Shown: positions 3,321 to 63,044 of the stretch, in pieces
How the letters are laid out: each line of letters begins with the position of its first letter
How positions within the stretch are numbered: the first letter of the stretch is position 1
Made by a program: the position numbers and the translations under genes
Notes under the pieces: generated by a model
Told to the model about the DNA's origin: nothing
Seen by the model: the letters and a program-made list of their open reading frames with translations, nothing else
Databases searched by the model: none
Origin: Clostridia bacterium
GTDB lineage: Bacteria > Bacillota > Clostridia > Christensenellales > Aristaeellaceae
Direction of reading: 5' to 3'
DNA length: 64,000 nt
Assembly: GCA_017431005.1 (NCBI GenBank)
Contig: JAFRLY010000016.1
Span: 1-64,000, forward strand

Positions 3321-4792
3321 GCTTCGGCCTCCTCCGCGAACCGGACGATGAATACGGATCCCTTTCCGGGTTCGCTTTCCACGCTCACGGTGCCGCCCTC
3401 CAGCTTGACCAGCTGTCTCACAATGCTCAGTCCCAGGCCGGTGCCGCCGGTATCCCGGCTGCGGGCCTTGTCCACCCGATAAAAGCGCTCGAAGATATGG
3501 CTCTGGTCCTCCGGGGGAATACCGATGCCGTTGTCCTGAACCCGCCAGACCAGTTCTCCGTCCTCCCGGTTCAGGGAAACCCGGATGGTTCCGCCGTCCT
3601 GCGTGTATTTCAGGGCGTTGTCCGTCAGGTTGTACAGAATCTGATTCAGCTTGATCCGGTCCCCCGTCATTTCCAGGCCGGGCTCGATGGCTTCCTCAAG
3701 CCGCTGTCCCCGCTTCTCCGCCGCGGGCCGCAGCAGGCGCACGGTTTCCTCCGTCAGCTCTGAAAGCTGCACGCGTTCCTTTTTGCTGCTTTCAGCCCCC
3801 TGATCCATCTGGCTCAGGGCCAGCAGGTCCGTGATGATCCCGGTCAGCCGGTCAATCTCGTGGTTCATGTCCTGCATGAACTCCTGCCGCAGGTCGGCCG
3901 GCATATCCGGCTGATAAATCAGCGTTTCCAGCATGACCTTCATGGTCGTCAGCGGCGTTTTCAGCTCATGGCTGGCGTTGGACACGAACTGGCTCCTTGT
4001 TTTATCCAGGCTCTCCAGCTGCGAAGCCATGGTATTGTAGTTCTCCGCCAGTTCCCGCAGCTCGCCGCTGCCCTGCACCGGCACGCGGACGCTCAGGTCG
4101 CCCTTACCCATCTTGCGCATGGTTTTGCTCAGGGAGGTAATCGGCTTGGTCAGCACCTGGCTCAGAAAGAGCGCCAGAATCAGGGCCGCCACCGCGATCA
4201 GGATAAACACGCGCACCAGCCGCCACCGCACGCCGGACATGGCGTCCATCAGCCGCTGAATCCGGCTCACGAACACCAGTGCGCCGCGGCTGTTGTCCGG
4301 GCCGGTGATCTCATGCACGCAGTAGGCGACGGAGGCCGCTCCGCCTTCGCCGCTCATCCTCTCCGCCGCTTCCCTGCCCGGGGAGTACATGCCGTAAGCT
4401 TCAGTCTCACCGCTGAGCAGTACGGCGATCACCTCATGCAGGAGCAGCCGTTCTCCGCACAGCTCCTGAAAGGTGTCCGCCTGCACCTTGCCGTCCCCGT
4501 CCACGACGAGCAGACGCCCGTCCATGGTTCCGGCATTGTCCGTCAGTGACTGATTCAGTTCTTCCAGAGACAGGCTCCGATACAGGGGCGAAACCTGGTC
4601 CGCCACCTTTTCCGTCAGCAGCATGTCCTCCCTGGTGCGCTGGTCAAACAGGAACTCGCTTACCAGATCTGTCAGGCTGGTGGCCGCCACCGCGAAGGAT
4701 ACGCCCACAATGACAAAAAAAGCCAGCAGGATTTTGCCCCTGATGCTGGCTAAAAAAGCTGTCTTAGTCCTGATCCGTGAAATAGTAACCAA
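3317..4792 (-). CDS. Sensor histidine kinase (HAMP, HisKA, HATPase_c)
   Basis: Membrane kinase of about 491 aa. TM1 lies at about 20-40, an extracytoplasmic sensor domain at about 41-188, and TM2 at about 192-212. A HAMP domain follows (about 213-265), then HisKA with phospho-acceptor His275 in SNASHELKTPL. The ATPase domain shows NLTDNALKYT, DNGIGIPPED and GGTGLGLSIV. The architecture is that of WalK/PhoR/MtrB. The reading frame overlaps the end of the response regulator. The only in-frame start at the beginning is TTG at 4792, with no separate ribosome binding site at a normal distance, so the exact start is uncertain and translational coupling is likely. It probably phosphorylates the regulator encoded just upstream. 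Confidence 0.93.
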   Translation of the reverse strand: MVTISRIRTKTAFLASIRGKILLAFFVIVGVSFAVAATSLTDLVSEFLFDQRTREDMLLTEKVADQVSPLYRSLSLEELNQSLTDNAGTMDGRLLVVDGDGKVQADTFQELCGERLLLHEVIAVLLSGETEAYGMYSPGREAAERMSGEGGAASVAYCVHEITGPDNSRGALVFVSRIQRLMDAMSGVRWRLVRVFILIAVAALILALFLSQVLTKPITSLSKTMRKMGKGDLSVRVPVQGSGELRELAENYNTMASQLESLDKTRSQFVSNASHELKTPLTTMKVMLETLIYQPDMPADLRQEFMQDMNHEIDRLTGIITDLLALSQMDQGAESSKKERVQLSELTEETVRLLRPAAEKRGQRLEEAIEPGLEMTGDRIKLNQILYNLTDNALKYTQDGGTIRVSLNREDGELVWRVQDNGIGIPPEDQSHIFERFYRVDKARSRDTGGTGLGLSIVRQLVKLEGGTVSVESEPGKGSVFIVRFAEEAEA

Positions 4793-44406: not shown

Positions 44407-47400
44407 TCAGCCGCCGGGACTCATGCCGCTTTCCACCTCGATGGTGAACGTTTTCGTGATCTGCCTGAACGCGTTGGATTTATCCGGTGTAAAGGTCAGC
44501 GAAACCGTGAAGCTGGTGCCTGCCGCGTCTGTTGTCAGCTGGCTGGTCTGCGAGTTGGTCGGAACGGTGTATGTGCCGGTAACCTCATCCCCGTTATATT
44601 CGGCAGGATAATCTCCGTAACCCACTGCGTTCTCAATGGCAGACTTTACCGTAACGCCCGCTTCCGGTATCACGTATATAGTCGTAAATATTATATCCGG
44701 CGTGAACTGGAAGGTGACTTCCTTCGTGCCCGTATACGTCTGTCCGTTCAGCGTGACCGCTGCCGAATAGACGGATTTTCCCGCTGTATTATTCTCAATA
44801 TCCGGATCGGTCCGGCTGCTAAGTGTGATTGTCGTCGTGGATACTTCCGTCTGATGGCTGCTGTCCCGTTTGCAGGTGAAAACTGCCTTGGCCTTCTCCA
44901 CACCTTCCCAGGTCCAGACCGGAGTCTGCCAGTCATGATTGTCCGGAGCGGAAGTGACCCAGCCATTTGTGCCGTATTCTTCTGCCGCCTGGGCATCTTT
45001 ATAGTATTTCCTGCACCGGCCGCAGTACCAGTACGCCGTGTTTCCGTTATTTGTGCAGGTCGCCGCAACGGCCTCGTACGGGGTCAGATCGTGCCCCAGG
45101 GCTTCCGTTGCCTGCGTTTCCGTTACGCCGCAGCCTTCACGCTGACACGTCCGGGTTTCCGTTCCGCCTTCAGTGCAGGTCGCGGTGTTGCCGCTCCATG
45201 CACCGAAGTCATGGCCCAGCTTGCTGATCACCCAGCTGTTTTCCGGAACCGTCGTCTTCCCTTCAGCGTCGCTGAAGTACTGCTTACACCTCTCGCAATA
45301 CCAGTATGCGCTGTTTCCGTTTGTTGTGCAGGTTGCCGCAGCAGCCGCGTGCGGAGTCATGTTGTGCCCCAGCGCTTCCGTTGCCCGTGTTTCCGTTTCG
45401 GCGCAGCCTTCCCGCTGACAGGTACGGGTTTCCGTTCCGCCTTCGGTGCAGGTGGCTGTGTTGCCGCCCCATGCGCCGAAGTCATGGCCCAGCATGCCGA
45501 TCACCCAGCTGTTTTCCGGAATCGTCGTCTTCCCTTCAGCGTCGCTGAAGTACTGCTTACACCTCTCGCAATACCAGTATGCGCTGTTTCCGTTTGTTGT
45601 GCAGGTTGCCGCAGCAGCCGCGTGCGGATTCATGTTGTGCCCCAGCGCTTCCGTTGGCCGCGTTTCCGTTGCACTGCAGCCTTCACGCTGGCAGATACGG
45701 GTTTCTGTTCCGCCTTCGGTGCAGGTGGCGGTGTTGCCGCCCCATGCGCCGAAGTCATGGCCCAGCATGCCGATCACCCGGCTGCTTTCCGGAATCGTTG
45801 TCTTCCCTTCCGCGTCACCGAAGTATTGTTTACACTGGTCACAGTACCAGTATTCGTTGTTTCCGTCCATGGTGCAGGTCGCCGCAGCGGCCGCGTGCGG
45901 GGTCATGTTGTGGCCCAGCGCTTCTGTTGCCTGCGTTTCTGTTTTGCCGCAGCCTTCACGCTGGCAGGTACGGGTTTCCGTTCCGCCTTCGGTGCAGGTG
46001 GCTGTGTTGCCGCTCCATTCACCGTAGTCGTGGCCGATGGCCGGTATTTCAGCGCTCTTTTTCTGTGCGGTGAAAGCGCCGTTTGTGAAGGCTGCCTGCC
46101 AGGTGATCTTTCCCGGAGCCTCGCAGGAGGCGGGGACATTTTCTGTCTCAGCAGCTTTCACCTTTTCCCTGAGCGTATGGGCCGCGTCGTTGGCGCAGAC
46201 CTGCCGGGCCTCGCACAGCATGCAGCCGTCCTTGTCCTCGCTCCAGGTGTAGGAAGCCTCCAGCCACTTGTGACCGGTCGGCGGAATCTCCTTCCGCATC
46301 TGCAGGGAACAGGTGCGGCACTGGATCAGCTCCAGTCCTTTTTTCGTGCAGGAGGGTTTCGTCAGGGTTGTATACCGGAACGAATGAACCAGGTTTTCCC
46401 GCGGGAAGGTATCCTGATCCGCCTCTGCGGGCAGCCCGTTCGGATAATCTGCATCCGCGAACTCCTTCCCGATGCCGGTCCGGTTCGGGTCCACCTCATC
46501 CAGGGTCCCGAGAAGGGAGTATGCGCCGGTTTCGTCAAACCAGTAGACTTTGCCGTCAATCACGATCTGACGGCTGACAAGCATTTCCCCGGGGAAGAGG
46601 CCCAGCTTTTCGCTGCCTATGGTGCTGAAGAAGCACTGTGTTCCCTGGCCGTCCATGGTGACAAATCCGAACTGCTGTGTCGGATCGCTGTGATCCATGG
46701 GATTCCCCAGCTGAATCTGCGCGCCGTTGCTGAGGATCGCGGCTCCGCAGAACTGATAGGTGGTTCCGGACGCTGAGGTAAACTCAGCCGCGATACCGTA
46801 ATCCTTATCCACCAGATTCACAACAAAGGCGCCTGCGCCTTCATTGGTCAGCACACCGGCCTCGATGAAATCCTGAATGGAATAGCCTTCCGACGCCAGG
46901 GTATTGACCAGGTCCGCCAGGTCGGAGACCGTTATATTCCGGCTCCGGAAGAAGGAAATCAGTCCGTTGAGCGTAAAGCCCGAATTGGCCGCGAAGGTGA
47001 TGACATCCGTCAGGCTCAGGCCCATGGCGCCCATTACGTCTGTAATTTCCAGAGCGGGCAGCGCTTCGCCGGGCTCGGCCTTTTCAGCATTCAGCAGACT
47101 GTCTGCGAGGGTATAAAGGCTGCCGATGGCGGCAGCGATGGTGTTCTGATCGAAGGCAGCCAGTTCATCCTGCGTCAGGTTTTCGATGTTTCCCAGTTTT
47201 TCACGGGCTTCCCTGATCATTGCCTCCGCCTGTTCGATCGCGCCTTCCAGGATTGCTATGTTCGACGGATTGGTCAGTTTGCCCGCGGCTTCCCGAGCAT
47301 AGCCTGCGGCGGCGTCCGCCTGGTTCAGGAGACTCTGCGCCTCTTTCCGGAGTTTTTCAACTGTCTGCTCTTCCTGCGACTGGCCTGTTCCGTTCTTTTC

Positions 47401-48129
47401 CAGCTCATCCGCAGCGGAGCCGACGCTGCCGCTTACGCGGACCTGCTCCAGCATGGCAATATCGTCCTTATCAGCGATTAATTTACCGTCCGTTCCGCTT
47501 TCCTGGGGCATCGCGGCATCCAGCGCATTGACGGCAAGCACAACCCTGTTGATCTCGTCAATCAGCTTTGTCTTGTTTTCCGATTTCTCCGCCTGCCACA
47601 GAATCGCTTCCGCCTTTGTGACAGCCTGCCGCCCCGCGGCAAGCAGCGTTTCCGCTAAACTGACGGATAAGCTGACCCCGGAATTCACGGGCTCGGGAAG
47701 CATCTGAGACGAATCCTGTAAACTGACTGTTTGGCCGTGAGCCTCTCCCGTCATGTCCGGATCCCGGACTTCAACCCCCGGCATCGCCTGATCTTCGGGC
47801 ACAGTAACGCGAAGAGCTCCGGTCCGGCTGTCATATATGGCAATCCCGCCCACAATCCCTCTTTCCGCAGTGGCTTTTCTGGTCCTGTCGTGGATCCACA
47901 TGTTATCTATGGTAGCCGGCATGACTGCCTGGTTTTTTTGAATGGAGAACCGGCTGTCCTTGATTGCGCGTGATAAGGCCTGCGGCATCCTGTTCGCAAT
48001 GTAGATCTCTGGTTCTTGACGACCGACGGGGTCCGGTTTGACAGGTTCCGGGCCTGCCAGAGCCATAGTTCCTGTGAGCATGCAGACTGCGGTCAGTATC
48101 GCTGTCAGCCGTTTCCATTTTCCGTTCAT
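44407..48129 (-). CDS. Large secreted protein with 91-residue Cys-rich tandem repeats
   Basis: Exported protein of 1240 aa with a signal peptide (MNGKWKRLTAILTAVCMLTGTMALAG). The N-terminal half (about 150-400) is Ala/Glu-rich and probably helical. The C-terminal half holds tandem repeats of 91 residues. Each contains GHDFGAWxGNTATCTEGGTETRTCQREGCxxTETxATEALGHNMTPH, then AAAATCTTNGNSAYWYCERCKQYFSDAEGKTT, with paired Cys-x-x-Cys motifs that may bind metal or form disulfides. A final beta domain (about 1090-1235) ends in SGMSPGG. It has no SPTG or LPXTG anchor, so it is released or held non-covalently. The ATG at 48129 has AGGAGG 6 nt upstream. I see no intrinsic terminator after it. The function is unknown; similar Cys repeats occur in other secreted clostridial proteins. 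Confidence 0.8.
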   Translation of the reverse strand: MNGKWKRLTAILTAVCMLTGTMALAGPEPVKPDPVGRQEPEIYIANRMPQALSRAIKDSRFSIQKNQAVMPATIDNMWIHDRTRKATAERGIVGGIAIYDSRTGALRVTVPEDQAMPGVEVRDPDMTGEAHGQTVSLQDSSQMLPEPVNSGVSLSVSLAETLLAAGRQAVTKAEAILWQAEKSENKTKLIDEINRVVLAVNALDAAMPQESGTDGKLIADKDDIAMLEQVRVSGSVGSAADELEKNGTGQSQEEQTVEKLRKEAQSLLNQADAAAGYAREAAGKLTNPSNIAILEGAIEQAEAMIREAREKLGNIENLTQDELAAFDQNTIAAAIGSLYTLADSLLNAEKAEPGEALPALEITDVMGAMGLSLTDVITFAANSGFTLNGLISFFRSRNITVSDLADLVNTLASEGYSIQDFIEAGVLTNEGAGAFVVNLVDKDYGIAAEFTSASGTTYQFCGAAILSNGAQIQLGNPMDHSDPTQQFGFVTMDGQGTQCFFSTIGSEKLGLFPGEMLVSRQIVIDGKVYWFDETGAYSLLGTLDEVDPNRTGIGKEFADADYPNGLPAEADQDTFPRENLVHSFRYTTLTKPSCTKKGLELIQCRTCSLQMRKEIPPTGHKWLEASYTWSEDKDGCMLCEARQVCANDAAHTLREKVKAAETENVPASCEAPGKITWQAAFTNGAFTAQKKSAEIPAIGHDYGEWSGNTATCTEGGTETRTCQREGCGKTETQATEALGHNMTPHAAAAATCTMDGNNEYWYCDQCKQYFGDAEGKTTIPESSRVIGMLGHDFGAWGGNTATCTEGGTETRICQREGCSATETRPTEALGHNMNPHAAAAATCTTNGNSAYWYCERCKQYFSDAEGKTTIPENSWVIGMLGHDFGAWGGNTATCTEGGTETRTCQREGCAETETRATEALGHNMTPHAAAAATCTTNGNSAYWYCERCKQYFSDAEGKTTVPENSWVISKLGHDFGAWSGNTATCTEGGTETRTCQREGCGVTETQATEALGHDLTPYEAVAATCTNNGNTAYWYCGRCRKYYKDAQAAEEYGTNGWVTSAPDNHDWQTPVWTWEGVEKAKAVFTCKRDSSHQTEVSTTTITLSSRTDPDIENNTAGKSVYSAAVTLNGQTYTGTKEVTFQFTPDIIFTTIYVIPEAGVTVKSAIENAVGYGDYPAEYNGDEVTGTYTVPTNSQTSQLTTDAAGTSFTVSLTFTPDKSNAFRQITKTFTIEVESGMSPGG
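44980..46050 (-). repeat. Four nearly identical 273-bp coding repeats
   Basis: Corresponding positions recur at 45208, 45481, 45754 and 46027, exactly 273 bp (91 codons) apart. Long stretches are identical between units, including in third codon positions, which points to recent duplication and likely copy-number change. Confidence 0.88.
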
Positions 48130-48237
48130 GCATAGCCTCCTGAGTCTGTTGTGTCTTTCCATGGATTTGTGTATGTTTCTGAAAGTTTTTCACGTTTTTC
48201 CTGAGAGGTATAAAAGCCAAATAATAAAGGAACAGGC

Positions 48238-53042: not shown

Positions 53043-54449
53043 TTATTCGTAGCAATCGCCCAGCACGACGTAGGCGCCGTTCAGACCCAAAGGCGTGTTG
53101 TAATCGTCAATGATGTTCCAGTTGGTGCCTCTCGCTCCGGCCCTGCCCGTGTTGATAGTCAGCTTGCCGTTGACGAAGGTGACAATGTAATTGCCCTGGA
53201 GCGCGTCACCCATGACGTAGATCGTGTAGGTGCCGCGGGTTTCGCCGGCTTCACGTACCAGCTTGTAGTTCACGTAGTCGTTGCCGATCAGGCCGTTCAC
53301 GATCGCGGTAAGCTCAGGATCCTTAGCGCCGGTCATCTTCTGCAGGTCTCTGGCTGTCACGGTGACAGGCTTCGGATTTACCTTCAGGATGATTTCCTTT
53401 TCAACTGTACCGTTCGTTTCTGTCTCCGCCCGGACGATAACTTTGATCTCGCCGACATTCTTGATCGTGGGAATCTTATCCGTCCAGGTCTTTCCGCCGT
53501 CGATACTGTAGGTGATCTTTGCGTCCGGAATGCTGCACTCAATATGCGGCTCGTGATCTTTTCCGTCATAGACGCCTTCGTAACCGGTTGTGCCTTCCAG
53601 GGTAACCAGGCTGCGCTTGGTCATCTTACCGAAGACGACCAGACGGCCGTTGGTTTCAGCGCTGGCGCAGGTGGAAAGTGCCAGGATCTTATCTGCGGTA
53701 GCCGCCAGTTCAGGATCATAGTGCAGCACCACCGTGCCAACGCCAACACCATCCAGGCCGCCGCTGGCCAGGAAAGCTTTCACTTCTGCCGCGCGGTCTC
53801 CCACGTTATAAATGTTGTTTTCGTAAGCATCCGTTGTGGCCACAGCAAAGAATTTCACGTCATACGCGCCGGTCTTTGTGACCACAATGGCATCCCGGTG
53901 CGCGTTGTAGTAGGTCACATCCCGGAAGCTGTCCAGCCGGCCGAACATCGCGCCGTTATCCATATGATGGCCGTAGATCAGGTTATAGCTGTCAGAGAAG
54001 TCTCCGCTGTTCTCTGCCGCCAGATAGATTGCGCCGGTCAGGGAGCTTTGCTTATAGATGTCATGCCAGGCATAGTAGAGGTCATCCGGACCCTGCAGCA
54101 CCGGATAGTCGATGCTGGTATCATAGACCGTCAGCCAGGCTCTGTAGTCCTCATTGATGCCGCTCAGGCCGTCCGCATTCAGCGGTGTTTCGTAATCTTC
54201 AATGAGTTCCGGTTTGTACTGCAGCAGATCCCAGGCGCTGGTATAGGCCTTATACTCTGTATTGAAGGTATCCGCAATTACGTAGCCGGAATAGATCACC
54301 AGCACAGCCGCCAGCAGACCGGAAGCCAGGGAAACCACGCTGTTACCGGCTGCCAGTACTGTCTTCAGCACGGCTTCCACCACGGTTTTTTTCGCGGCCT
54401 CATGCGCCACCGGATTCATAAGCTCGTCCGGTAAAATTCTTTTTGCCAT
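53043..54449 (-). CDS. Class-B-like pilus sortase with C-terminal Ig/MBG-type extension
   Basis: Membrane transpeptidase of 468 aa. TM helix at about 36-58. The sortase domain (about 85-277) has DTSIDYPVLQGPDDLYY...LTGAIYLAAENSGDFSDSYNLIYGHHMDNGAMFG, with catalytic His161 or 162, Cys261 in LALSTC, and Arg269 in NGRLVVFGK. This is the SrtB arrangement, also used by the pilus polymerase SrtC1 of streptococcal FCT loci. After the catalytic domain come about 190 extra residues with two Ig-like modules: YEGVYDGKDHEPHI...YSIDGGKTWTD, and an MBG-like PVTVTARDLQKMTGAKDPELTAIVNGL...YIVTFVNGKLTI. Such an extension is unusual for a sortase. AAGGAG precedes the ATG, 12 bp after the SipA-like gene. I infer that it polymerises and anchors the SPTG proteins. 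Confidence 0.92.
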   Translation of the reverse strand: MAKRILPDELMNPVAHEAAKKTVVEAVLKTVLAAGNSVVSLASGLLAAVLVIYSGYVIADTFNTEYKAYTSAWDLLQYKPELIEDYETPLNADGLSGINEDYRAWLTVYDTSIDYPVLQGPDDLYYAWHDIYKQSSLTGAIYLAAENSGDFSDSYNLIYGHHMDNGAMFGRLDSFRDVTYYNAHRDAIVVTKTGAYDVKFFAVATTDAYENNIYNVGDRAAEVKAFLASGGLDGVGVGTVVLHYDPELAATADKILALSTCASAETNGRLVVFGKMTKRSLVTLEGTTGYEGVYDGKDHEPHIECSIPDAKITYSIDGGKTWTDKIPTIKNVGEIKVIVRAETETNGTVEKEIILKVNPKPVTVTARDLQKMTGAKDPELTAIVNGLIGNDYVNYKLVREAGETRGTYTIYVMGDALQGNYIVTFVNGKLTINTGRAGARGTNWNIIDDYNTPLGLNGAYVVLGDCYE

Positions 54450-54461
54450 CTGTCTTACTCC

Positions 54462-55475
54462 TTACAGATTGTTCCTTCGGGCAATTGTGATGACCGTGCC
54501 CAGAATTTCCTCCTGCTTCACCGGGCCGAAGAACCGGCTGTCAGCGCCGCCGTTTCTGTGATCCGCCAGTACGAAGCATTCTCCGGCCTTCAGCGTCAGA
54601 GGATATTCAGTAAAGCCTACGTACATCGTCGTTGGGGAGAAAATGTTGCTTTCAATCATCGAGTTTCCGTTAATGATGAGAGAACCGTTTTCTGTTATTT
54701 CAACGGTATCACCGGCCGTTGCAACAACCCGGCATACAAAGGTCTGAGTGCCGGCCTTGCCTCTCAGGCCAAGCTTTACAGATGCATTGTAGAGGAGGCG
54801 GAAAAACTTTTCCTTCAGCCCTTCTCCCTCAACCGCCTGAGCCGGTGGAATATCCGGAACCTTCTGCTCATTTGATACCGCAGAGACTGAAGTGTTTATT
54901 TCGCCGTCTTCATTCATCTGCGCTGCTTGTTCCTCTGCCTGTTCAGCGTCATATTCCTGTAACGAAATTGCCTCTCTTTGCAGCACGATGATGTCCTGAG
55001 CCCGGACGTCTTTATCCAGCCTGTAGAAAACCAACAGGTCGCCGCTGTCAATCCGGGGATACATATCGTCGTTCGGCATGTTCATGACACCGATGATCTG
55101 ATAGAACAGGATGTATACCACAGCGATCAGGAGCAGCGTACGGATCAGCAGGTTTCGGAACCCCCGAAGCAGTCTTTTTTTCTTCCTGGCTTTCAGTGCG
55201 GCTTCCTTCGCTGCTGCTTCCTTGCTTGCCTCCCGCCGCTGGCGTTCTTCCTCTGCAAGCTTCTGTTTTTCCGCTTCCCTGCGCCGATTCTCTTCCTCCT
55301 GTCGTTGGGCTTCTGTCAGCTGCGGCTGCAGCAGCTCCGCGATCTGTTTTGCGAACTGCTGCACCTGCTCCGGTGATTGGCCGGTCGAGGTGTTATTTAC
55401 GGATACTTCAGCATCAGGTATGCTTTGCTCTGTCTGTGCGGAGACCTTCTGCTGCATATTGTTGTCTTCTGTCAT
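54462..55475 (-). CDS. SipA-like inactive signal peptidase (pilus assembly factor)
   Basis: Membrane protein of 337 aa with the S26 signal peptidase I fold but without its catalytic pair. The N-terminal 105 residues are cytoplasmic and Glu/Lys/Arg/Ala-rich, probably coiled coil (EAQRQEEENRRREAEKQKLAEEE). TM helix at about 106-129. Box B reads PNDDMYPRIDSGD, so the Ser nucleophile position (before Met138) is Asp137. Box D reads FVCRVVATAGDTV, so the general-base Lys is Cys248. Box E (LADHRNGGADSRFFGPV) is intact. Streptococcal SipA from FCT pilus loci likewise lacks both residues and is needed for pilus polymerisation. Position between the pilins and the sortase fits that role. The ATG at 55475 with AAAGGA is preferred to 55514. 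Confidence 0.88.
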   Translation of the reverse strand: MTEDNNMQQKVSAQTEQSIPDAEVSVNNTSTGQSPEQVQQFAKQIAELLQPQLTEAQRQEEENRRREAEKQKLAEEERQRREASKEAAAKEAALKARKKKRLLRGFRNLLIRTLLLIAVVYILFYQIIGVMNMPNDDMYPRIDSGDLLVFYRLDKDVRAQDIIVLQREAISLQEYDAEQAEEQAAQMNEDGEINTSVSAVSNEQKVPDIPPAQAVEGEGLKEKFFRLLYNASVKLGLRGKAGTQTFVCRVVATAGDTVEITENGSLIINGNSMIESNIFSPTTMYVGFTEYPLTLKAGECFVLADHRNGGADSRFFGPVKQEEILGTVITIARRNNL

Positions 55476-55634
55476 ATCTTGTCCTTTCTTAGGGACTTCA
55501 GGATGGCTTTTCATTTATCTGCACACCTTCAGGCAAACTGCCTTCAGGTCGTTGATCACGATTTTGGTGGGTCCGTCTGACAGACCAGTATTTGTGAGAT
55601 ACAATAATATTAGTAGTTGTTTTTTCTGATGTTC

Positions 55635-55726: not shown

Positions 55727-57109
55727 TTATTCTTCTTCCTTCTTGCTGCGCTTGGTAGCCAGAATGATGAACAGGACGCAGCCGGCCGCGAACATCGCGA
55801 AGTAAGGAGCGAACCGCAGAACAACACCGGTGGGAGAAATCTGCTCTAGGTTGTTCGTCCACTTGAGGCCGACGTTCGTGTCTTTAGTAGTATAGGCAAT
55901 TGTTCCGCCAATACCGGTTTCATCGATCTTCTTATTGGCCGTGGCAGCCTGAGCGGTAGCAAGCGTTTGTCCCGCTGCTTCAGTTACTTCACTGCTTACT
56001 GTGTAGCCGAGGCTTTCTTCAACCATTTCCTTTACTTTGACATACACATTGTTCGGAACAGTGATCTTAACCTGACCGCCGTTCGGAATGGTGATAGCTC
56101 CAGTATAGGTTGTTGATGCAGCATCAGATGCAAAAATCTTCCAACCATCTGTAGGGGCAGTAACCACAGCGCCAGTAGTGCCGACTACTTCAACCTTAAA
56201 TGCAGTGCCTGCAAGTGTCGTAGCACTGTCATTTCCCTCTCCAGTCGGTTCCGTATAGAACACAGTTAGATCAAAGGGGAACTGATAAGTAACATCACCC
56301 ATGCTACCGGTGACTTCCTTGGTTACGATAATCACGTTGGTTGTATTATCATCTTTGTGAGGATCCTCAGGATCTTTTACATCTTCACCAAATGTATTGG
56401 TAAAGTTGTCTGTTTTGCCACTGTAGGAAATAAGATTATTGCTGTTAACAGTCAAAACAGAAGTCAGACTGTTGTTAACAACAGCGTTGGTTACCTTATA
56501 TACGGGAGTCTCGCCGGTGGCCGCTGTATTTGCAACATAAATATCGATGTACTTAATAACAGCATCTTTACCGTTTGTCGCTTCACTCTGGAAGCCAACA
56601 GTAGACTGTTCAGCAGTGAGAGCAGCCTGGGTCAGTGTATAACGGTAGATACCTGCATGAGGCCAGGTAACGGCACTCACATCAACTTTAATCTCTTTAG
56701 TTGTGTCCTCAGTTCCGGCATCAAATGCCACCGTCAGTTCTGAACCAAGCGCAACATTAGTCGTACCATAGATCAGCTTTGCTCCAGTAGGACCTTCAAA
56801 AACAGGAACTTTATTTCCGTCCGATGCATCACTTGCAGAAATAGCCGTACCAGCTGCAAGCGTATACTTGAAAGAAGTTGCAGCAAAACCGGCAAGATCT
56901 GCATTCATGTCAACGATGGTTTTCACAACAAACTGATCAAAGTATGTTTTTGTTGTTGCGTCAGCTGCATCAGTATAATGTTCATAAACGTTGGTCGTAT
57001 TATCTGCTGTACCTTCGTTATATCCACCGGTCGGAGGTTCAGTAGCAAAAGCACTTGTTATTGTCAGTAACATAACTGCAGCAAGTGCAATAGCAAGAAT
57101 TTTCTTCAT
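55727..57109 (-). CDS. Pilin B, SPTG-anchored
   Basis: Secreted pilin-like protein of 460 aa. The signal peptide is MKKILAIALAAVMLLTITSAFA. The N-terminal half holds an FctA/Spy0128-type module ending in PHAGIYRYTLTQAA, which normally carries an internal Lys-Asn isopeptide bond; the motif G-x-Y-x-Y-x-x-x-E here ends in Gln. The second half has VTKEVTGSMGDVTYQFPFDLTVFY, the module shared with the giant adhesins. It ends in ISPTG, a hydrophobic helix and KRSKKEEE. AAGGAG lies 8 nt before the ATG. Pilin A upstream has the same build, so one is probably the shaft and the other a base or minor subunit (inference). Confidence 0.9.
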   Translation of the reverse strand: MKKILAIALAAVMLLTITSAFATEPPTGGYNEGTADNTTNVYEHYTDAADATTKTYFDQFVVKTIVDMNADLAGFAATSFKYTLAAGTAISASDASDGNKVPVFEGPTGAKLIYGTTNVALGSELTVAFDAGTEDTTKEIKVDVSAVTWPHAGIYRYTLTQAALTAEQSTVGFQSEATNGKDAVIKYIDIYVANTAATGETPVYKVTNAVVNNSLTSVLTVNSNNLISYSGKTDNFTNTFGEDVKDPEDPHKDDNTTNVIIVTKEVTGSMGDVTYQFPFDLTVFYTEPTGEGNDSATTLAGTAFKVEVVGTTGAVVTAPTDGWKIFASDAASTTYTGAITIPNGGQVKITVPNNVYVKVKEMVEESLGYTVSSEVTEAAGQTLATAQAATANKKIDETGIGGTIAYTTKDTNVGLKWTNNLEQISPTGVVLRFAPYFAMFAAGCVLFIILATKRSKKEEE

Positions 57110-57235: not shown

Positions 57236-58663
57236 TTATTCTTCCTCTTCCTTGCGGCGGCGAGTGAAGAACACGATCAGCAGGGCAATACCGCCAACCA
57301 TCATTGCGAAGTACGGAGCAAACCGCAGAACAACACCCGTGGGAGAGATATTGTCCAGTTTGTTCGTAACAGTAAAGGTTGTATTCGCTGTATCATCCTT
57401 GAAGGAAGCAGCAGTCGTACCGGTAGTAGCAGTTTCCTTATTCACAGGCGTATCAGCAGCGATACCAAAGTTCGTGGCAGTAACCTTGTACTGGTTCTCA
57501 GTGTTGTTGAATTCGTTCGCGAGAATGCTTACATTATCAGTAGTGGAGATGACGGAAGGAACACCGATCAGGTTGATCTTGCCTTCGTGCTTGATGGCGA
57601 ATCCATCAGCAACAGTCGCGGTCGCAGAACCCAGGGTCTTCGTTCCAGCAGTAGCAATCAGCTGAGCTTTCGTTTCGGCCACATTCTTGCTTCCGTTATT
57701 CGTCACACTGTAGGTAAACGCAGCGCCGGGAATAGAGTTGGAAATATCCGTCTGGAAGGGGAAGTAGTTCGCCTTGTCACCCATATCACCGGTAACTTCC
57801 TTGGCAACGGTCACGTTGTATGTGGTATACAGATCATAGTAATTCGGCAATTCGCTGGGAGTCGTGAACTTTGTCTTCTGGGTGTCAGGATCATCCTCAT
57901 CCCCGGCGGGCTTGGTCGGATCATCAGGAGTTACGTCAGCAGGATCCTCTTCTTCGAAATCATCGTCACCTTCAGGATCTCCGAAACCGGTAGTCTTGCC
58001 TTCCTTATCGTCCTTGTTGTCCTCGCTGCCGTCACTATTCGGGTCGCCGCTGTTGTCTACATCAGGATTATCGTCAGTGTTAGGATCCAGAATTACAGCG
58101 CCAGGAACTTCGCCGGTATTCTTTACATAAACATCAAGCACCAGGGTCTTATCCTGAGTTCCTACTTCAGTCACACCAACATTGTTCTTCTGAGTAGTTG
58201 AGGTAGTCTGAGTGATGATATAACGATAGACACCGGCAACAACGATGTCATCAGCAGACAGAATCTTGCTGCCATCAAAGGACACGGTAACCTTCTTGGT
58301 CACAGCAGCTTTACCGTCAGCCGCAGCCTGAACCAGCTTGTGGTCAGAGCTGAAGTTAATACCGAAATCAACGGAACCAGTTGCAGTAGTCAGTCCGAAG
58401 CCGCGCATATCGCCGGCTTTTACGGTAACCTGGTTGCCGGCATGGTCCTTCACAGTAGCTCCGGCCTCTCCGGGCGTAATAGTATATGTGTAATACAGGT
58501 TGGGCTCATATACCTTGGAGGCCTCAACATTTTTGAAATACAGGGTCTGGGTAATCGGTACGTCAAATGTTGTGTCTACAGTTGCCGGATCAGCTAATGC
58601 AGATACGGTTCCCAGCACCATCATGGCAGCCAGGAGCAGGGCCAGAAGCTTTTTCACATTCAT
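57236..58663 (-). CDS. Pilin A, SPTG-anchored
   Basis: Secreted pilin-like protein of 475 aa. The signal peptide is MNVKKLLALLLAAMMVLGTVSALADP. The FctA/Spy0128-type N-terminal module (about 25-185) ends in VAGVYRYIITQTT. A central Asp/Glu/Pro-rich, low-complexity linker (about 190-265; DPNTDDNPDVDNSGDPNSDGSEDNKDD) follows. The second module is YNVTVAKEVTGDMGDKANYFPFQTDI. The sorting signal is ISPTG, then a hydrophobic helix and FTRRRKEEEE. The ATG at 58663 has AGGAGG 10 nt upstream; the longer frame upstream lacks a signal peptide at its start. As the first pilin gene, and followed by a stable stem-loop, it is the best candidate for the major subunit. Confidence 0.9.
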   Translation of the reverse strand: MNVKKLLALLLAAMMVLGTVSALADPATVDTTFDVPITQTLYFKNVEASKVYEPNLYYTYTITPGEAGATVKDHAGNQVTVKAGDMRGFGLTTATGSVDFGINFSSDHKLVQAAADGKAAVTKKVTVSFDGSKILSADDIVVAGVYRYIITQTTSTTQKNNVGVTEVGTQDKTLVLDVYVKNTGEVPGAVILDPNTDDNPDVDNSGDPNSDGSEDNKDDKEGKTTGFGDPEGDDDFEEEDPADVTPDDPTKPAGDEDDPDTQKTKFTTPSELPNYYDLYTTYNVTVAKEVTGDMGDKANYFPFQTDISNSIPGAAFTYSVTNNGSKNVAETKAQLIATAGTKTLGSATATVADGFAIKHEGKINLIGVPSVISTTDNVSILANEFNNTENQYKVTATNFGIAADTPVNKETATTGTTAASFKDDTANTTFTVTNKLDNISPTGVVLRFAPYFAMMVGGIALLIVFFTRRRKEEEE

Positions 58664-58861
58664 AGTTTTCTTTCCTCCTAAAAATTTTTGAGAATCTGAT
58701 TTTTGACTGCCAAACCATTCCATTCAGTTCAGCAAATGTATATGTTGTCGGCCGGGGGTCTGTCCCTCGCCGTTCCAACCTTCCGTCGCATTGACGATCT
58801 CTCCTTTCATTTGGTTCGCTCGTCTGGGTACCTATATATCGTTTAGTACTTTGCGACTGAT
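58664..58861 (-). promoter_or_regulatory. 198-nt structured leader before pilin A
   Basis: The minus strand begins with GTCGCAAAG, a GTACTA...TAGGTAC hairpin (about 58849-58828) and GACGA...TCGTC. GGC-rich stems and an AT-rich tail before AGGAGG follow. No strong terminator or consensus promoter is evident. GCAAAG followed by CTAAA and TAGG faintly recalls c-di-GMP-I aptamers, but the GGCAAACC half is missing. Confidence 0.3.
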
Positions 58862-59647
58862 TCAGGCCTGGTTCTTCTCTTCCAGCCTTTCCGGACTTCT
58901 GCTCCAGTTCGGAACCTCGACCATCAGTCTCCCGTTGGTCCTGGTCACCCGGAAGCGGAAGGGATGTTCCTTCGCCCATTGTTCGTTTCCTTCGGCCAGC
59001 TCCTGCCATCTGCTCCATTGGGAAATAAAGTTTTCATGCAGCAGCTCTTCGGCTTCAAGACGAACTTCCTTTGCCCGTTCAAAGTCCGTGTACTCGCCCA
59101 GGTAATAGCGCTGGCCCTGAAGGCCGATGCTTACCCGGTACTTGTTTCCGGAGCGGGAAATCCCGCGGAAGCCGCTGGTGTTGTCGGACCGGCTTTTCCG
59201 GTACTTCAGCCATTCCACGCACGTACCGTCCACAAAGTGGAGCAGATTGTTCACATGGGTGTTCAGCTCCTGCCTCCGGCAGCCACAGCTGGTGGTGTTT
59301 CCGGATACCAGGCTGTCCTGGGGAATCTCCACTGTGTTACCGCATTCGCAGCGGCACAGCCAGTATGCGGAGCCTTTCCTGTCCCGCCGTTCCGTTACCC
59401 GGACGGCTGTCAGGCGTCCGAATTGCTGTCCGGTCAGATCCTTCAGGGTGGTGTGTCCGTGGCGGGTTTTGCATCCGCAGCTCCAGATCCGGTCTCCCTT
59501 CAGATCCGAGGATCTGACGATCCGTTCATTTCCGCAGTCACACCGGCAGAGCCAGGCGCTGCGTCCGTGAACCTTCTCAGCGGGTTCCACCGCCGTCAGC
59601 ATACCGAAGCGCTGGCCGGCGATGACAGGATTCGTTTCTGTGCGCAT
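58862..59647 (-). CDS. AP2-domain DNA-binding protein with Cys-rich zinc-binding repeats
   Basis: Protein of 261 aa. Two N-terminal repeats, each GQxFGxLTAV...WLCRCxCGN...SCGC (about 10-60 and 70-125), have four Cys each and probably bind zinc. The AP2/ERF domain follows (about 150-205): TSGFRGISRSGNKYRVSIGLQGQRYYLGEYTDFERAKEVRLEAEELLHENF. In bacteria this combination is typical of phage and mobile-element proteins, some fused to HNH nucleases; no HNH motif is seen here. I prefer the ATG at 59647 (GGAG 10 nt upstream); a GTG at 59656 overlaps the upstream stop by 4 nt. Either way it is translationally coupled to the surface protein before it, and so would share its phase-variable expression. 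A pilus-regulator role is inference. Confidence 0.8.
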   Translation of the reverse strand: MRTETNPVIAGQRFGMLTAVEPAEKVHGRSAWLCRCDCGNERIVRSSDLKGDRIWSCGCKTRHGHTTLKDLTGQQFGRLTAVRVTERRDRKGSAYWLCRCECGNTVEIPQDSLVSGNTTSCGCRRQELNTHVNNLLHFVDGTCVEWLKYRKSRSDNTSGFRGISRSGNKYRVSIGLQGQRYYLGEYTDFERAKEVRLEAEELLHENFISQWSRWQELAEGNEQWAKEHPFRFRVTRTNGRLMVEVPNWSRSPERLEEKNQA

Positions 59648-59652
59648 CTGCG

Positions 59653-61503
59653 TCACACTCCAACGGACTTAAAGCTGATCTTCTCTTCCCCGTCGGTCGT
59701 TTCCGCGCGGCCTGTGGTTTCCATCGGCTTGGGCTCGTCGTTCACGTAGCGGAAGGTATGCACCTCATGATCCGCGTCGGTTTCCGGCTCGTCCACGAGG
59801 ATTTCCACTTCGTAGGCGCCGCTTCCGGCGTAATCCACGCCGTCAGCGATGATGGACAGCTGTACCATGTAGAAGCTGTGGATCTCCTGGTTTTCTTCCA
59901 GGTCCAGGCTCTCCACCGTGTTCTCCAGATACTGCTCGTAGGACGCACCGCCGGTGGTCAGGGAAGCGGTCACTTCAGCGTTGACCGGAATGCCGGCATC
60001 CGGTGCGAAGCGGACGATCAGCTTCAGACCCTGGGCAGCCAACGACACGGTCTTTTCAACCTTGCCGTTCACCAGCTCAACGGGCAGCTCTTCCGGCACT
60101 TCCTCAGCGAGTTCCTCTTCGGTTTCCTCACCGGGGATTTCTTCCTCGGAGGTTTCTTCCTCGTCCGTTCCCTCGTCGGAAACTTCTTCGTCAGTCACCT
60201 CTCCGTCCGGTCCCTCTTCGGTGGCTTCCCCGTCGGTCAGCTCTTCCTCCGCAGGTTCTCCATCGGTTTCTTCTTCAGCGTTTTCCCCTTCAGGCAGTTC
60301 AGCTTCGCCGTCCTGTCCTTCGGTCTCTTCCGCTTCGGTTTCTTCCCCGTCAGTTTCTCCTGCTTCGGCTTCTTCGGTCATAGCCTCTTCTTCGGCTGCG
60401 TCCCCATCGGTCTGCTCCGCGGATTCCTCATCGGTGTTTTCGTCCGCCGGAGTTTCTTCCCCGTCCGGGGTTTCGGTTTCTTCGCCCGTTGCGGGTTCTT
60501 CTTCGCTCAGGATTTCCTCATCCGCCGCGGGTTCGGTCGCTTCCGGTTCCTCTTCCTCAGCGGCAGGCGTTTCTTCCTCCGCTGCAGGAATCTCAGTTCC
60601 GGGTTCCGTCGTTACGGTTTCTTCTTCGGTAACCTCCGGCACGGGCGTTGCCGCCTCAACTTTGGTCAGCTTCAGGCTGAAGTTTCCGAGCGTGTTTGCT
60701 TCGGCGCTGTACACATACAGGAACCAGGTTCCCTCCAGGACCTTCCAGTTCAGATCCAGCGGCTGTTTCAGACCCTGGTTTGTTTCCGGCTCAAAATGCC
60801 TTGTCCGGCTGCCGTCCTGCAGCTCCGCGTCCATGCTGACCGCCAGGCCGTTGGTTTCCAGATGCAGCTCCATGTTCCACGGGACATCCACCCGGATAAT
60901 CCACTGATCTTTGGTCTCAGTGAAGTTTCCGCTCACCGTTCCGCCGATCTTCAGCACGGCGTCCGCCTGGATCTCCTTGGGAGCCTGTGTGGGCTGTTCC
61001 GTCGGAGCGGCGGTCGGGGCTGCCGTCGGAGCCTGTGTAGGTGCGGGAGTCGCTGTCGGTTCCGGAGTCGGAGCTGCTGTCGGCACTTCCGTCGGCGCTG
61101 CCGTAGGTTCCGGTGTCGTCGTAGGTTCCGGTGTCGGCGGCGCAGTCGGTTCCGGTGTGGCCGTGGGTTCCGGTGTGGCCGTGGGTTCCGGTGTCGGTGC
61201 CGGCGTGGGAGCCGGTGTTGCCGTCGGAGCCGGGGTGGGCGCCGGTGTCGCCGTAGGAGCCGGAGTCGGAGGTGTTGTCGGATCCGGCGCCTTGGGTTCC
61301 TCGACAGTCTGCACCGTCGCCACCACAATGACGTCCTCGGGCTGGCTTACCTCCTGTTGATTCTGAACTGCGATAATCTCCGCATATTCGTCAGAAGGTG
61401 GAGCCACTTCTTCTGCCATACCAACCGGGAACGGCGGCAGCAACGCGAAGCAAACCGCAAGGCCTGCCGACAGCGTCCTGACGCCATTCCATCCTTTTTT
61501 CAT
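59653..61503 (-). CDS. Secreted Pro-Thr-repeat, acidic surface protein; first gene behind the invertible promoter
   Basis: Exported protein of 616 aa. Signal peptide about 1-30. A Pro/Thr/Ala/Glu repeat (PTPAPTATPEPTA..., about 75-175) probably spans the wall. A PPC-like beta domain follows (about 180-285; DAVLKIGGTVSGNFTETKDQWIIRV...LEGTWFLYVYSAE). Next is a very acidic Glu/Thr-rich stretch (about 288-460). The C-terminal domain LKLIVRFAPDAGIPVNAEVTASL...SFYMVQLSIIADG matches the N-terminal domain shared by the three giant adhesins. There is no SPTG signal or membrane anchor. AAAGGAGG precedes the ATG. No promoter lies between it and the left inverted repeat 31 bp upstream, and a terminator stands just beyond, so it appears silent in this orientation. 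Confidence 0.85.
   Translation of the reverse strand: MKKGWNGVRTLSAGLAVCFALLPPFPVGMAEEVAPPSDEYAEIIAVQNQQEVSQPEDVIVVATVQTVEEPKAPDPTTPPTPAPTATPAPTPAPTATPAPTPAPTPEPTATPEPTATPEPTAPPTPEPTTTPEPTAAPTEVPTAAPTPEPTATPAPTQAPTAAPTAAPTEQPTQAPKEIQADAVLKIGGTVSGNFTETKDQWIIRVDVPWNMELHLETNGLAVSMDAELQDGSRTRHFEPETNQGLKQPLDLNWKVLEGTWFLYVYSAEANTLGNFSLKLTKVEAATPVPEVTEEETVTTEPGTEIPAAEEETPAAEEEEPEATEPAADEEILSEEEPATGEETETPDGEETPADENTDEESAEQTDGDAAEEEAMTEEAEAGETDGEETEAEETEGQDGEAELPEGENAEEETDGEPAEEELTDGEATEEGPDGEVTDEEVSDEGTDEEETSEEEIPGEETEEELAEEVPEELPVELVNGKVEKTVSLAAQGLKLIVRFAPDAGIPVNAEVTASLTTGGASYEQYLENTVESLDLEENQEIHSFYMVQLSIIADGVDYAGSGAYEVEILVDEPETDADHEVHTFRYVNDEPKPMETTGRAETTDGEEKISFKSVGV
60950..61290 (-). repeat. PT-rich coding repeat
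   Basis: Imperfect short-period repeats encoding PT-A/E-P-T runs. The DNA is a near-regular GG(T/A)GC/GTCGG array, prone to slippage length change. Confidence 0.8.
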
Positions 61504-61534: not shown

Positions 61535-61558
61535 TCGCAGAATATCTACTTCTGCGAC
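61535..61558. repeat. Left inverted repeat of invertible element
   Basis: A 24-bp sequence whose exact reverse complement is at 63012-63035. It is itself a dyad: arms TCGCAGAA and TTCTGCGA (8 bp each) around an asymmetric 7-bp centre, TATCTAC. This is the size and shape of a tyrosine-recombinase core site. Confidence 0.92.
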
Positions 61559-61564
61559 AGTCAG

Positions 61565-61597
61565 AAAAAGGGCCTCTCCGCTGCATCGGAGAGGCCC
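61565..61597 (-). terminator. Terminator of the recombinase gene inside the invertible element
   Basis: A perfect 11-bp stem (61570-61580 with 61587-61597) is followed by T5 on the minus strand. In the present orientation it blocks recombinase transcription from entering the surface-protein gene. Confidence 0.93.
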
Positions 61598-61617
61598 TTT
61601 TGACGGCTTTTGACGGT

Positions 61618-62724
61618 TTATACGAATTGCTCTGCCAGAAGGTCTATCGCTTTCCGTTTTGTTTCCATCTGACTGTGGGCATAGATTTCAATTGTGGTTT
61701 TTACGGAACTGTGCCCGAGAATGGCGCTGACGGTTTTTACATCCGTGCCGAGCTCCAGCATCCGCGTCGTAAAGGTATGTCTGAGATTATGGAACCGGAT
61801 CGGCGGAAGCTCCGCCCGCTGCAGCAGACGCTGAAACCGACGCTGGATGGTCCTGGGATCCGCCGGCTTATCCTTTTTGCCGAAGATAAAATCCTCCGGC
61901 TTGAACAGATCGTTTCTGATCATCAGCAGCTTTTCGATCAGCTGGTCCGGAAGCGGAATCGTACGGAAGGAAGAAGCTGTTTTAGGCGCGTTAATTACCA
62001 AAGCAGTTTTATGATCCTCTTCCTTCACATTCAACCGCAATACGGTCCGCCTGATGGTCATTGTCTGATGATACTCATCAATATCCTGCCACTGCAGCCC
62101 GCAGACTTCCCCGATCCGCAGGCCTGTATAGAGGCAGAGCTGCACCGCCAGATCCTTTTCCTCAGCGCAGTGCATCAGCTTATTCTCTTCATTCTGGGAC
62201 AGCACCAAGATTTCATATTCCGGCGCAGGCGGAAGGAGGAATTTCATTTCCGGAACCTGGCGCAGCAAATCGTGATCTGCCGCCTTCCTCAGCAGCTCCC
62301 GCATCAGCTGAAGAATATTCTGAATGCTTTTATCTGCCAGCCCTTTCTCCTTCAGCCAGTCTACAAAATCCAGCAGCATCTGCCGGTCTATCCTGCCGAT
62401 TTCTATCATGCCGAAATACGGCAGGATATGCTGATTCAGCATCTGATCATATTTCTGCAGCGTGGATGGCTTCAGTTTGCGGGAGCATGTATCTCCCCGC
62501 CATTCCTTTGCCCAGACACGCATCCGCGGCGTCTGCGGAACAGGATCCCGGAGAAAATCCTGATATTGCATCCGCTTCTCTGTCAGCTGCTTCTTCACTT
62601 CTGCATATTTGGATCCGTAGATGTATCCGTAAATTGCCTTGCCATCGGGTTTTCGGCCGCGAATATAACGGCCTTCATATCTGCCATCCGCCCGTTTGTA
62701 GATGTTCTCTCCATGTTTACTCAC
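61618..62724 (-). CDS. Tyrosine recombinase (phage-integrase family), likely inverts its own segment
   Basis: Protein of 368 aa. A short N-terminal arm-binding-like segment (YKRADGRYEGRYIRGRKPDGKAIYGYIYGSKYAE) is followed by a SAM-like core-binding domain (about 70-155). The catalytic domain has Arg203 (TGLRIGE), Lys248, His312 and Arg315 (RFHNLRHTF), His338 (LGHSS) and nucleophile Tyr348 (TIEIYAH), a complete set. I prefer GTG at 62724 (AAAGGGG 8 nt upstream) over TTG at 62742. It lies wholly between two perfect 24-bp inverted core-like sites, so it most likely recombines them and flips the 1.45-kb segment that carries it. No excisionase, phage or conjugation gene accompanies it, which argues against an integrative element. 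Confidence 0.93.
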   Translation of the reverse strand: MSKHGENIYKRADGRYEGRYIRGRKPDGKAIYGYIYGSKYAEVKKQLTEKRMQYQDFLRDPVPQTPRMRVWAKEWRGDTCSRKLKPSTLQKYDQMLNQHILPYFGMIEIGRIDRQMLLDFVDWLKEKGLADKSIQNILQLMRELLRKAADHDLLRQVPEMKFLLPPAPEYEILVLSQNEENKLMHCAEEKDLAVQLCLYTGLRIGEVCGLQWQDIDEYHQTMTIRRTVLRLNVKEEDHKTALVINAPKTASSFRTIPLPDQLIEKLLMIRNDLFKPEDFIFGKKDKPADPRTIQRRFQRLLQRAELPPIRFHNLRHTFTTRMLELGTDVKTVSAILGHSSVKTTIEIYAHSQMETKRKAIDLLAEQFV

Positions 62725-62794
62725 AGTGCCTTCCCCTTTCAATGTTCGTTATCAGCCGTGTGACGGCGTAAGTGACGGTAACGTAAAAAGCGAA

Positions 62795-62823
62795 AATATA
62801 GCAAAAAACCGAACGTCAATCAA
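62795..62823 (-). promoter_or_regulatory. Promoter of the tyrosine recombinase
   Basis: TTGATT (62823-62818), a 17-bp spacer and TATATT (62800-62795) on the minus strand, about 70 bp upstream of the GTG start. Confidence 0.65.
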
Positions 62824-62827
62824 GATA

Positions 62828-62931
62828 GTTACAAATAAGTTCGGGATATCTGCCATGTCTGAAACGTGAAACCCGAAAAGTGTTACAAAGCCTTAAGTAA
62901 CCGCTATGTAAGAAATATCAAAAGTTACAAA
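62828..62931. promoter_or_regulatory. Three GTTACAAA repeats between the two switch promoters
   Basis: GTTACAAA occurs at 62828-62835, 62882-62889 and 62924-62931, 54 and 42 bp apart. They could be arm sites for the recombinase or regulator sites. The complement TTTGTAAC resembles TGTAAC sites elsewhere in the window. Confidence 0.45.
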
Positions 62932-62959
62932 AAAACCCTAAAAAACATGTTTTAATGTA

Positions 62960-62988
62960 TTGACAACAACTTTGAAAAACAATAAAAT
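62960..62988 (+). promoter_or_regulatory. Invertible outward promoter
   Basis: TTGACA (62960-62965), a 17-bp spacer and TAAAAT (62983-62988), 23 bp inside the right inverted repeat. It points rightward, away from the pilus cluster. After inversion it would point leftward into the gene starting at 61503. Confidence 0.85.
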
Positions 62989-63011
62989 CAGTTACGGTAG
63001 ACAGTGAACAC

Positions 63012-63035
63012 GTCGCAGAAGTAGATATTCTGCGA
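63012..63035. repeat. Right inverted repeat of invertible element
   Basis: An exact 24-bp reverse complement of 61535-61558. The 7-bp centre, GTAGATA, is in the opposite orientation, so recombination gives inversion, not excision. Confidence 0.92.
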
Positions 63036-63044
63036 TATTTTTTT
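63013..63044 (+). terminator. Repeat-borne terminator active only in the present orientation
   Basis: The 8-bp stem of the right repeat (63013-63020 with 63028-63035) is followed by TA and T7 (63038-63044) on the plus strand. The left repeat has no T run after it on the minus strand, so this terminator would not act after inversion. Confidence 0.5.

Follow-up and report, generated by a model that had tools for sequence, protein, structure and literature searches.

In the Salmonella Hin switch an outward-facing promoter lies within the flipped segment, and Fim-type switches keep their recombinase genes outside the invertible segment, as with fimB and fimE, which lie outside fimS. Recombinases adjoin the switch and are occasionally found inside it, with Hin named as the example (PMC5903667). 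Clostridial invertons, among them the Cdi switches of C. difficile (PMC5903667) and inverton group 139 (PMC11892184), have short inverted repeats that enclose a segment beside surface or regulatory genes. Group 139 occurs mostly in Clostridia and is linked to nearby tyrosine-type invertases, and in the two examples printed with coordinates the repeats lie about 205 and 227 bp apart, with the invertase nearby (PMC11892184).

The segment analysed here, in a 64,000-nt stretch of Clostridia bacterium contig JAFRLY010000016.1 (the window), likewise has short inverted repeats beside surface genes. As in the Hin switch, the recombinase gene lies inside the segment predicted to flip (PMC5903667), but Hin is a serine recombinase (PMC3798978) and the enzyme here is a tyrosine recombinase. 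The pairing of a tyrosine recombinase with a putative invertible promoter for a pilus operon recalls the E. coli Fim switch (PMC9993118). On the other hand, fimS is given as 314 bp (PMC9993118) against 1453 nt between the sites here, and the position of the recombinase between the sites departs from the Fim-type layout. In layout, length and the inside position also distinguish the segment from group 139 (PMC11892184). Compared with elements that carry Tn916/Tn1549 integrases, the stretch between the sites lacks transposon genes, and the sites are inverted with respect to each other. Because the 1.45 kb enclose a tyrosine recombinase for which an arm-type domain is predicted, we rate the segment a variant of the known invertible promoters. 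Among the papers listed in the literature searches we recognised no description of this family, though one may have been published. We put at about 0.8 the probability that this segment, with its own tyrosine recombinase and outward promoter, flips between identical inverted sites and so switches the adjoining surface/pilus operon.

Anatomy of the segment and the pilus operon

The features of the segment and of the predicted target operon are listed in window coordinates.

53043..54449, minus strand: sortase, class B-like (Pfam Sortase above cut-off; TIGR03064 143.9 bits, below its cut-off of 153.75)
54462..55514, minus strand: signal peptidase, S26 (Pfam and NCBIfam)
55727..57109, minus strand: pilin-like protein with DUF7601 (Pfam PF24547)
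57236..58723, minus strand: pilin-like protein (PTG-type hydrophobic tail only; no Pfam family)
58862..59656, minus strand: 264-aa gene, sharing 4 nt with the 616-aa gene (ORF; no Pfam match)
59653..61503, minus strand: 616-aa surface protein, encoded first in the predicted target operon (ORF; no Pfam family)
61535..61558, no strand: operon-side recombination site (8-7-8 dyad with one extra base; its perfect inverted copy is at 63012-63035)
61566..61601, minus strand: terminator-like hairpin between recombinase and operon (18-nt arms, 94% complementary; -28.8 kcal/mol)
61602..61615, minus strand: tandem CGTC repeat directly after the recombinase stop (putative arm-type sites)
61618..62724, minus strand: tyrosine recombinase, 368 aa, likely GTG start (Pfam Phage_integrase, E 2.5e-32)
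62762..62777, minus strand: tandem CGTC repeat upstream of the recombinase (putative arm-type sites)
62960..62988, plus strand: outward promoter, TTGACA-N17-TAAAAT (11/12 consensus positions)
63012..63035, no strand: far recombination site (perfect inverted repeat of 61535-61558)

The two 24-nt repeats are 100% complementary, and each consists of TCGCAGAA-N7-TTCTGCGA plus one base. Since the 7-bp centres read TATCTAC in one and GTAGATA in the other, the sites stand in inverted orientation. Their exact pattern occurs at only these two places in the whole assembly (3.0 Mb, 63 contigs). Together with a run of T outside it (to about 63045), the far site is terminator-like on the plus strand, with a hairpin of -12.6 kcal/mol.

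The recombinase gene is intact, and the other four matches in the same genome are 22-44% identical to it. Its start is most likely the GTG at 62724, rather than the TTG at 62742, because the nearest database protein is 368 aa long and begins MSKHGENIY. R203, K239, H312, R315, H338 and Y348, which we take to be the catalytic six, are invariant across 14 sequences. The structure model is nearest to the Tn1549 integrase, a transposon enzyme and the nearest solved relative. The N-terminal domain is predicted to have three strands and one helix, as in the Tn916-type arm domain. Recombinases of that type carry a beta insertion between strands two and three of the catalytic domain, for which four strands at 220-256 of the model are candidates. 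Submitted alone to Foldseek, the N-terminal domain gave no match at E<=0.001, the fold match being weak, so the case that the enzyme may bind arm-type CGTC repeats near the core sites rests on predicted secondary structure and on the conservation of those repeats. The NCBIfam model for tyrosine-type DNA invertases, NF007370, scored 23.6 bits on the recombinase against a cut-off of 221.

The -10 element of the outward promoter ends 23 bp from the right repeat, and the promoter score was equalled in 0 of 200 simple shuffles. Lying inside the segment and facing out through one site, it is called a promoter by consensus only, and the region overall holds no excess of promoter-like sites (4 vs 2.4 in shuffles, sd 1.5). 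A terminator pattern scan of the region did not list the hairpin at 61566-61601, because the T run of that hairpin sits in its stem.

A sequence-only reading of this DNA had described perfect 24-bp inverted repeats bounding 1.45 kb, built as 8-7-8 dyads with opposite centres, and inside them a complete tyrosine recombinase, its terminator beside the left repeat and a promoter facing outward beside the right one. All of these are borne out by the complementarity, centres, domain match, hairpin energy and shuffle scores given above. The same reading had also assigned the recombinase a promoter of its own, which finds no support: the candidate at 62823-62795 matches 9/12 consensus positions, and the best inward scores in 13 other family-level elements are 7-9.

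FCT-like pilus loci group the genes for pilins, signal peptidase and sortase together on one strand, and the cluster here, with its pilin-like genes, S26 peptidase and sortase, fits such a locus. The sequence-only reading had set an operon of this kind behind the inverted promoter, with the 264-aa gene named as an AP2 protein. The genes, including the pilin-like, S26 and sortase genes, are present; that one transcript from the switch covers the whole operon we infer, and gaps of 126-212 bp separate some of the genes. Within the operon there is no clear excess over shuffles of promoter-like sites (8 vs 5.0, sd 2.2) or of terminator-like sites (12 vs 11.0, sd 3.7). Downstream of the cluster, 44407-48162 encodes a secreted-looking 1251-aa protein with repeated, cysteine-rich modules of GHD-GAW type.

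Predicted state and consequence of inversion

As assembled, the outward promoter faces away from the pilus operon, and the switch is predicted to be OFF. In this state the promoter would read away into the terminator-like far site. The hairpin at 61566-61601 would separate the recombinase from the operon, a shielding that the sequence-only reading had also drawn. Inversion in silico regenerates both sites and brings the end of the -10 element to 78 nt upstream of the start codon (ATG) of the 616-aa gene; the sequence-only reading had estimated about 70 nt. The flipped leader carries the hairpin of the site without a T-run, plus an AAAGGAGG.

The recombinase, a Tn916/Tn1549-type enzyme, would likely bind both outer dyad sites, with its N-terminal domain likely contacting the CGTC repeats inside each end, and strand exchange would take place within the 7-bp centres. 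After inversion, a transcript would cross the site and reach the ribosome-binding site and ATG of the operon. The flipping segment would thereby let its promoter turn the surface/pilus operon on or off.

Bracketed recombinases in related genomes

Within the genus, the recombinase was found in 0 of 44 other genomes at E<=1e-60. Ten of these 44 carry a sortase homologue (E<=1e-30), in loci that are without the recombinase, and homologues of the pilin-like protein 57236..58723 lie beside the sortase in five of the ten genus loci fetched. At the level of the family, 14 of 308 genomes, the studied one included, have a match at E<=1e-70, which yields 14 other loci. The sequence-only reading had allowed that the repeats might not be conserved beside the recombinase in relatives; they bracket it in 13 of these 14 loci, and the fourteenth is truncated by the end of its contig. 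Measured from the matched stretch, the brackets lie 189-394 bp ahead of it and 62-97 bp behind it. Bracket scores of at least 13 were found in 14/14 family-level elements (the studied one included) vs 9/1571 control intervals, by which chance repeats were rejected, and scores of at least 20 in 10/14 vs 0/1571; these controls were drawn from family-level loci only, and wider search windows were used for loci of the order and class.

That the repeats are paired terminators, or chance matches, with no part in recombination is exceedingly improbable. The right repeat with its T-run does score as a terminator, but a perfect 24-bp match across 1.45 kb, the recurrence of such repeats around homologous recombinases and the absence of any score of 20 or more among the 1571 control intervals speak against that reading.

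Beyond the family, brackets surround the recombinase in all 12 further loci of the order. The search of the class gave 52 matches outside the studied genome, 29 of which were tested as loci: 22 are bracketed, 2 have weaker brackets and 5 are without one. Four more class-level loci, all from genome G994, are also bracketed. In plasmid and phage collections, repeats scoring at least 15 were found at 12 of 12 loci, taken as the top 9 of 43 plasmid and the top 3 of 134 phage records. The hosts are E. faecalis, E. gilvus, E. raffinosus (three near-identical records, L138-L140), Vescimonas fastidiosa, R. albus, whose bracket is the weakest at 15, and three gut scaffolds. Among relatives on viral contigs, 2 of 20 checked (L058 and L059) are bracketed, these 20 coming from the 80 listed of 110, and exact searches of the viral contigs with each of three sites gave 0 matches. 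A Faecalibacterium relative of 23% identity (L008) has no bracket; at the other match of the scan that found it (L009), a general repeat scan listed an inverted repeat of 39 nt.

The internal parts of the element are conserved to differing degrees. The outward promoter scores at least 11/12 in 13 of the 14 family-level elements, with 0/200 shuffles equalling the score in each, and is weaker beyond the family: ten plasmid and phage-collection elements score 9-11, and up to 130/200 shuffles equal them. The CGTC motif upstream of the recombinase is present in 13/14 family-level elements vs 197/3439 control windows, in 8/12 order-level loci and in 7/29 class-level loci, and the motif after the stop (CGTC-N5..8-CGTC) in 8/14 family-level elements.

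The neighbours of these elements are varied. Among them are giant SpaA/Cna_B proteins (L040, L043, L169, L171), an FctA/CHAP protein (L035), rhamnan and capsule genes (L044, L042, L046, L170), helicases (L036, L038) and, beside the element of E. gilvus, WxL genes. Chemotaxis genes (CheC-like; methyl-accepting protein) follow L166 and L172, a placement hinting at phase-variable motility. Together these loci point to a family of self-bracketed recombinases, spread through the class and also present in Enterococcus, with pilus-like proteins, capsule, chemotaxis and helicase genes as neighbours. The inside placement, presented as an occasional case in PMC5903667, is usual in this family of tyrosine recombinases, for which an arm domain is predicted. 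If the cassettes do flip, candidates for phase-variable pili, capsules, chemotaxis genes and helicases could be drawn from genome sequence alone by the signature of a dyad-bracketed recombinase. The arm domain of this integrase class is tied to mobility in PMC8138268, and how such an enzyme is restricted to inversion would, given flipping, become testable.

In the right flank of element L047, after the right site, lies a homologue of the 264-aa AP2-like gene (45% over 205 aa).

Possible traces of inversion and of movement

The centres differ between elements and agree within each element, as expected if exchange requires matched centres. Homologous neighbours also occur on either side of the recombinase. 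A capsule operon of four collinear homologous genes lies to the left of it in L042 and to the right in L046, and homologous helicases lie to the right in L036 and to the left in L048; L036 and L048 come from the same genome, and their DNA is 79% alike over 1220 nt. On our reading of the ORF and Pfam lists, the promoter faces away from the likely target (OFF) in 10 of the 14 family-level elements and towards it (ON) in three (L038, L042, L048), with L039 ambiguous.

Both junctions are present in the assembly of one relative, G397. One of its contigs (C3) runs from the left flank through the site, the element and the second site into about 120 bp of inverted left flank, where it ends. The first 123 bp of another (C44) match the end of the element and its site exactly, and this contig continues into a different flank. 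The end of the element thus adjoins, exactly at the site, a right flank in C44 and the inverted left flank in C3, and such a pair of junctions is expected in the assembly of a population that mixes both orientations. This fork, with the anatomy and its conservation, upholds the earlier claim of an invertible promoter seen in its OFF state; the parts of that claim concerning control of the whole operon and a separate recombinase promoter stay, respectively, conjectural and unsupported.

It is unlikely that the switch, genuine in the family, is fixed in the studied strain, with the operon permanently off or driven by another promoter. The studied assembly has one orientation, no fork and no third site, extra junction contigs are likewise absent from the assemblies of G875, G115 and G994/G813, and no flip separates the near-identical E. 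raffinosus records, which share one orientation. Against a fixed switch, however, the sites match perfectly, the recombinase gene is unbroken, and an assembly displays the commoner form only. Contigs of 1380-1560 bp, about the size of the element, make up 35/224 of those bearing a homologue vs 8/120 for another integrase (Fisher p 0.017), an excess that we count as weak because the own cluster (P0001) had been left out and the bin picked post hoc. In G994 the contig of L211 (C16, 4753-4782) stops 5 bp past the right site, and an identical contig of G813 (L216) continues; the stop is an assembly break at the site.

Quite improbable, too, is the reading as a minimal Tn916-type transposon, with terminal repeats that serve movement rather than inversion and a neighbouring operon that is incidental. 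In its favour, the closest relative of solved structure is an integrase from a transposon, and two elements, L185 and L186, show 89% similarity over a stretch that starts about 20 bp beyond one repeat and takes in the whole of the other, with unmatched flanks. Full dyads with inverted centres nevertheless favour inversion over excision, and the conserved outward promoter of the family-level elements, the G397 fork and the presence of the same operon types on either side of the recombinase all speak against a transposon.

An invertible switch might itself travel. The L185/L186 pair, the patchy distribution and the unrelated targets suggest a mobile cassette; a single clear pair is insufficient to establish mobility, and homologous exchange is an alternative. 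We consider it possible, if rather doubtful, that these are widespread plug-in phase switches, in which a Tn916-type integrase has become a self-contained cassette that moves as a unit between loci and puts whatever operon adjoins its new place under on/off control. Such a cassette would comprise two sites, a promoter, arm sites, the recombinase and often a terminator.

Several individual loci are unusual in other ways. Three different elements of G994 (L212, L213, L214), with different sites, have a common left flank of about 176 bp at 89-93% similarity, as though one cassette had replaced another. At L038 (G144, contig C48, 3287-4958), imperfect inverted repeats extend well past the sites (81 plus 46 nt) and the same gene is encoded at both ends of the contig, so that the element sits in an inverted duplication. 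At L175 (G410, contig C15; element at 2288-3834, recombinase on the plus strand), similar proteins with signal-like starts diverge from both ends of the element, and a flip might select between the two paralogues. On R. albus plasmid pRUMAL02 (L050, 3912-7205), two further tyrosine recombinase genes diverge from the left repeat of the element.
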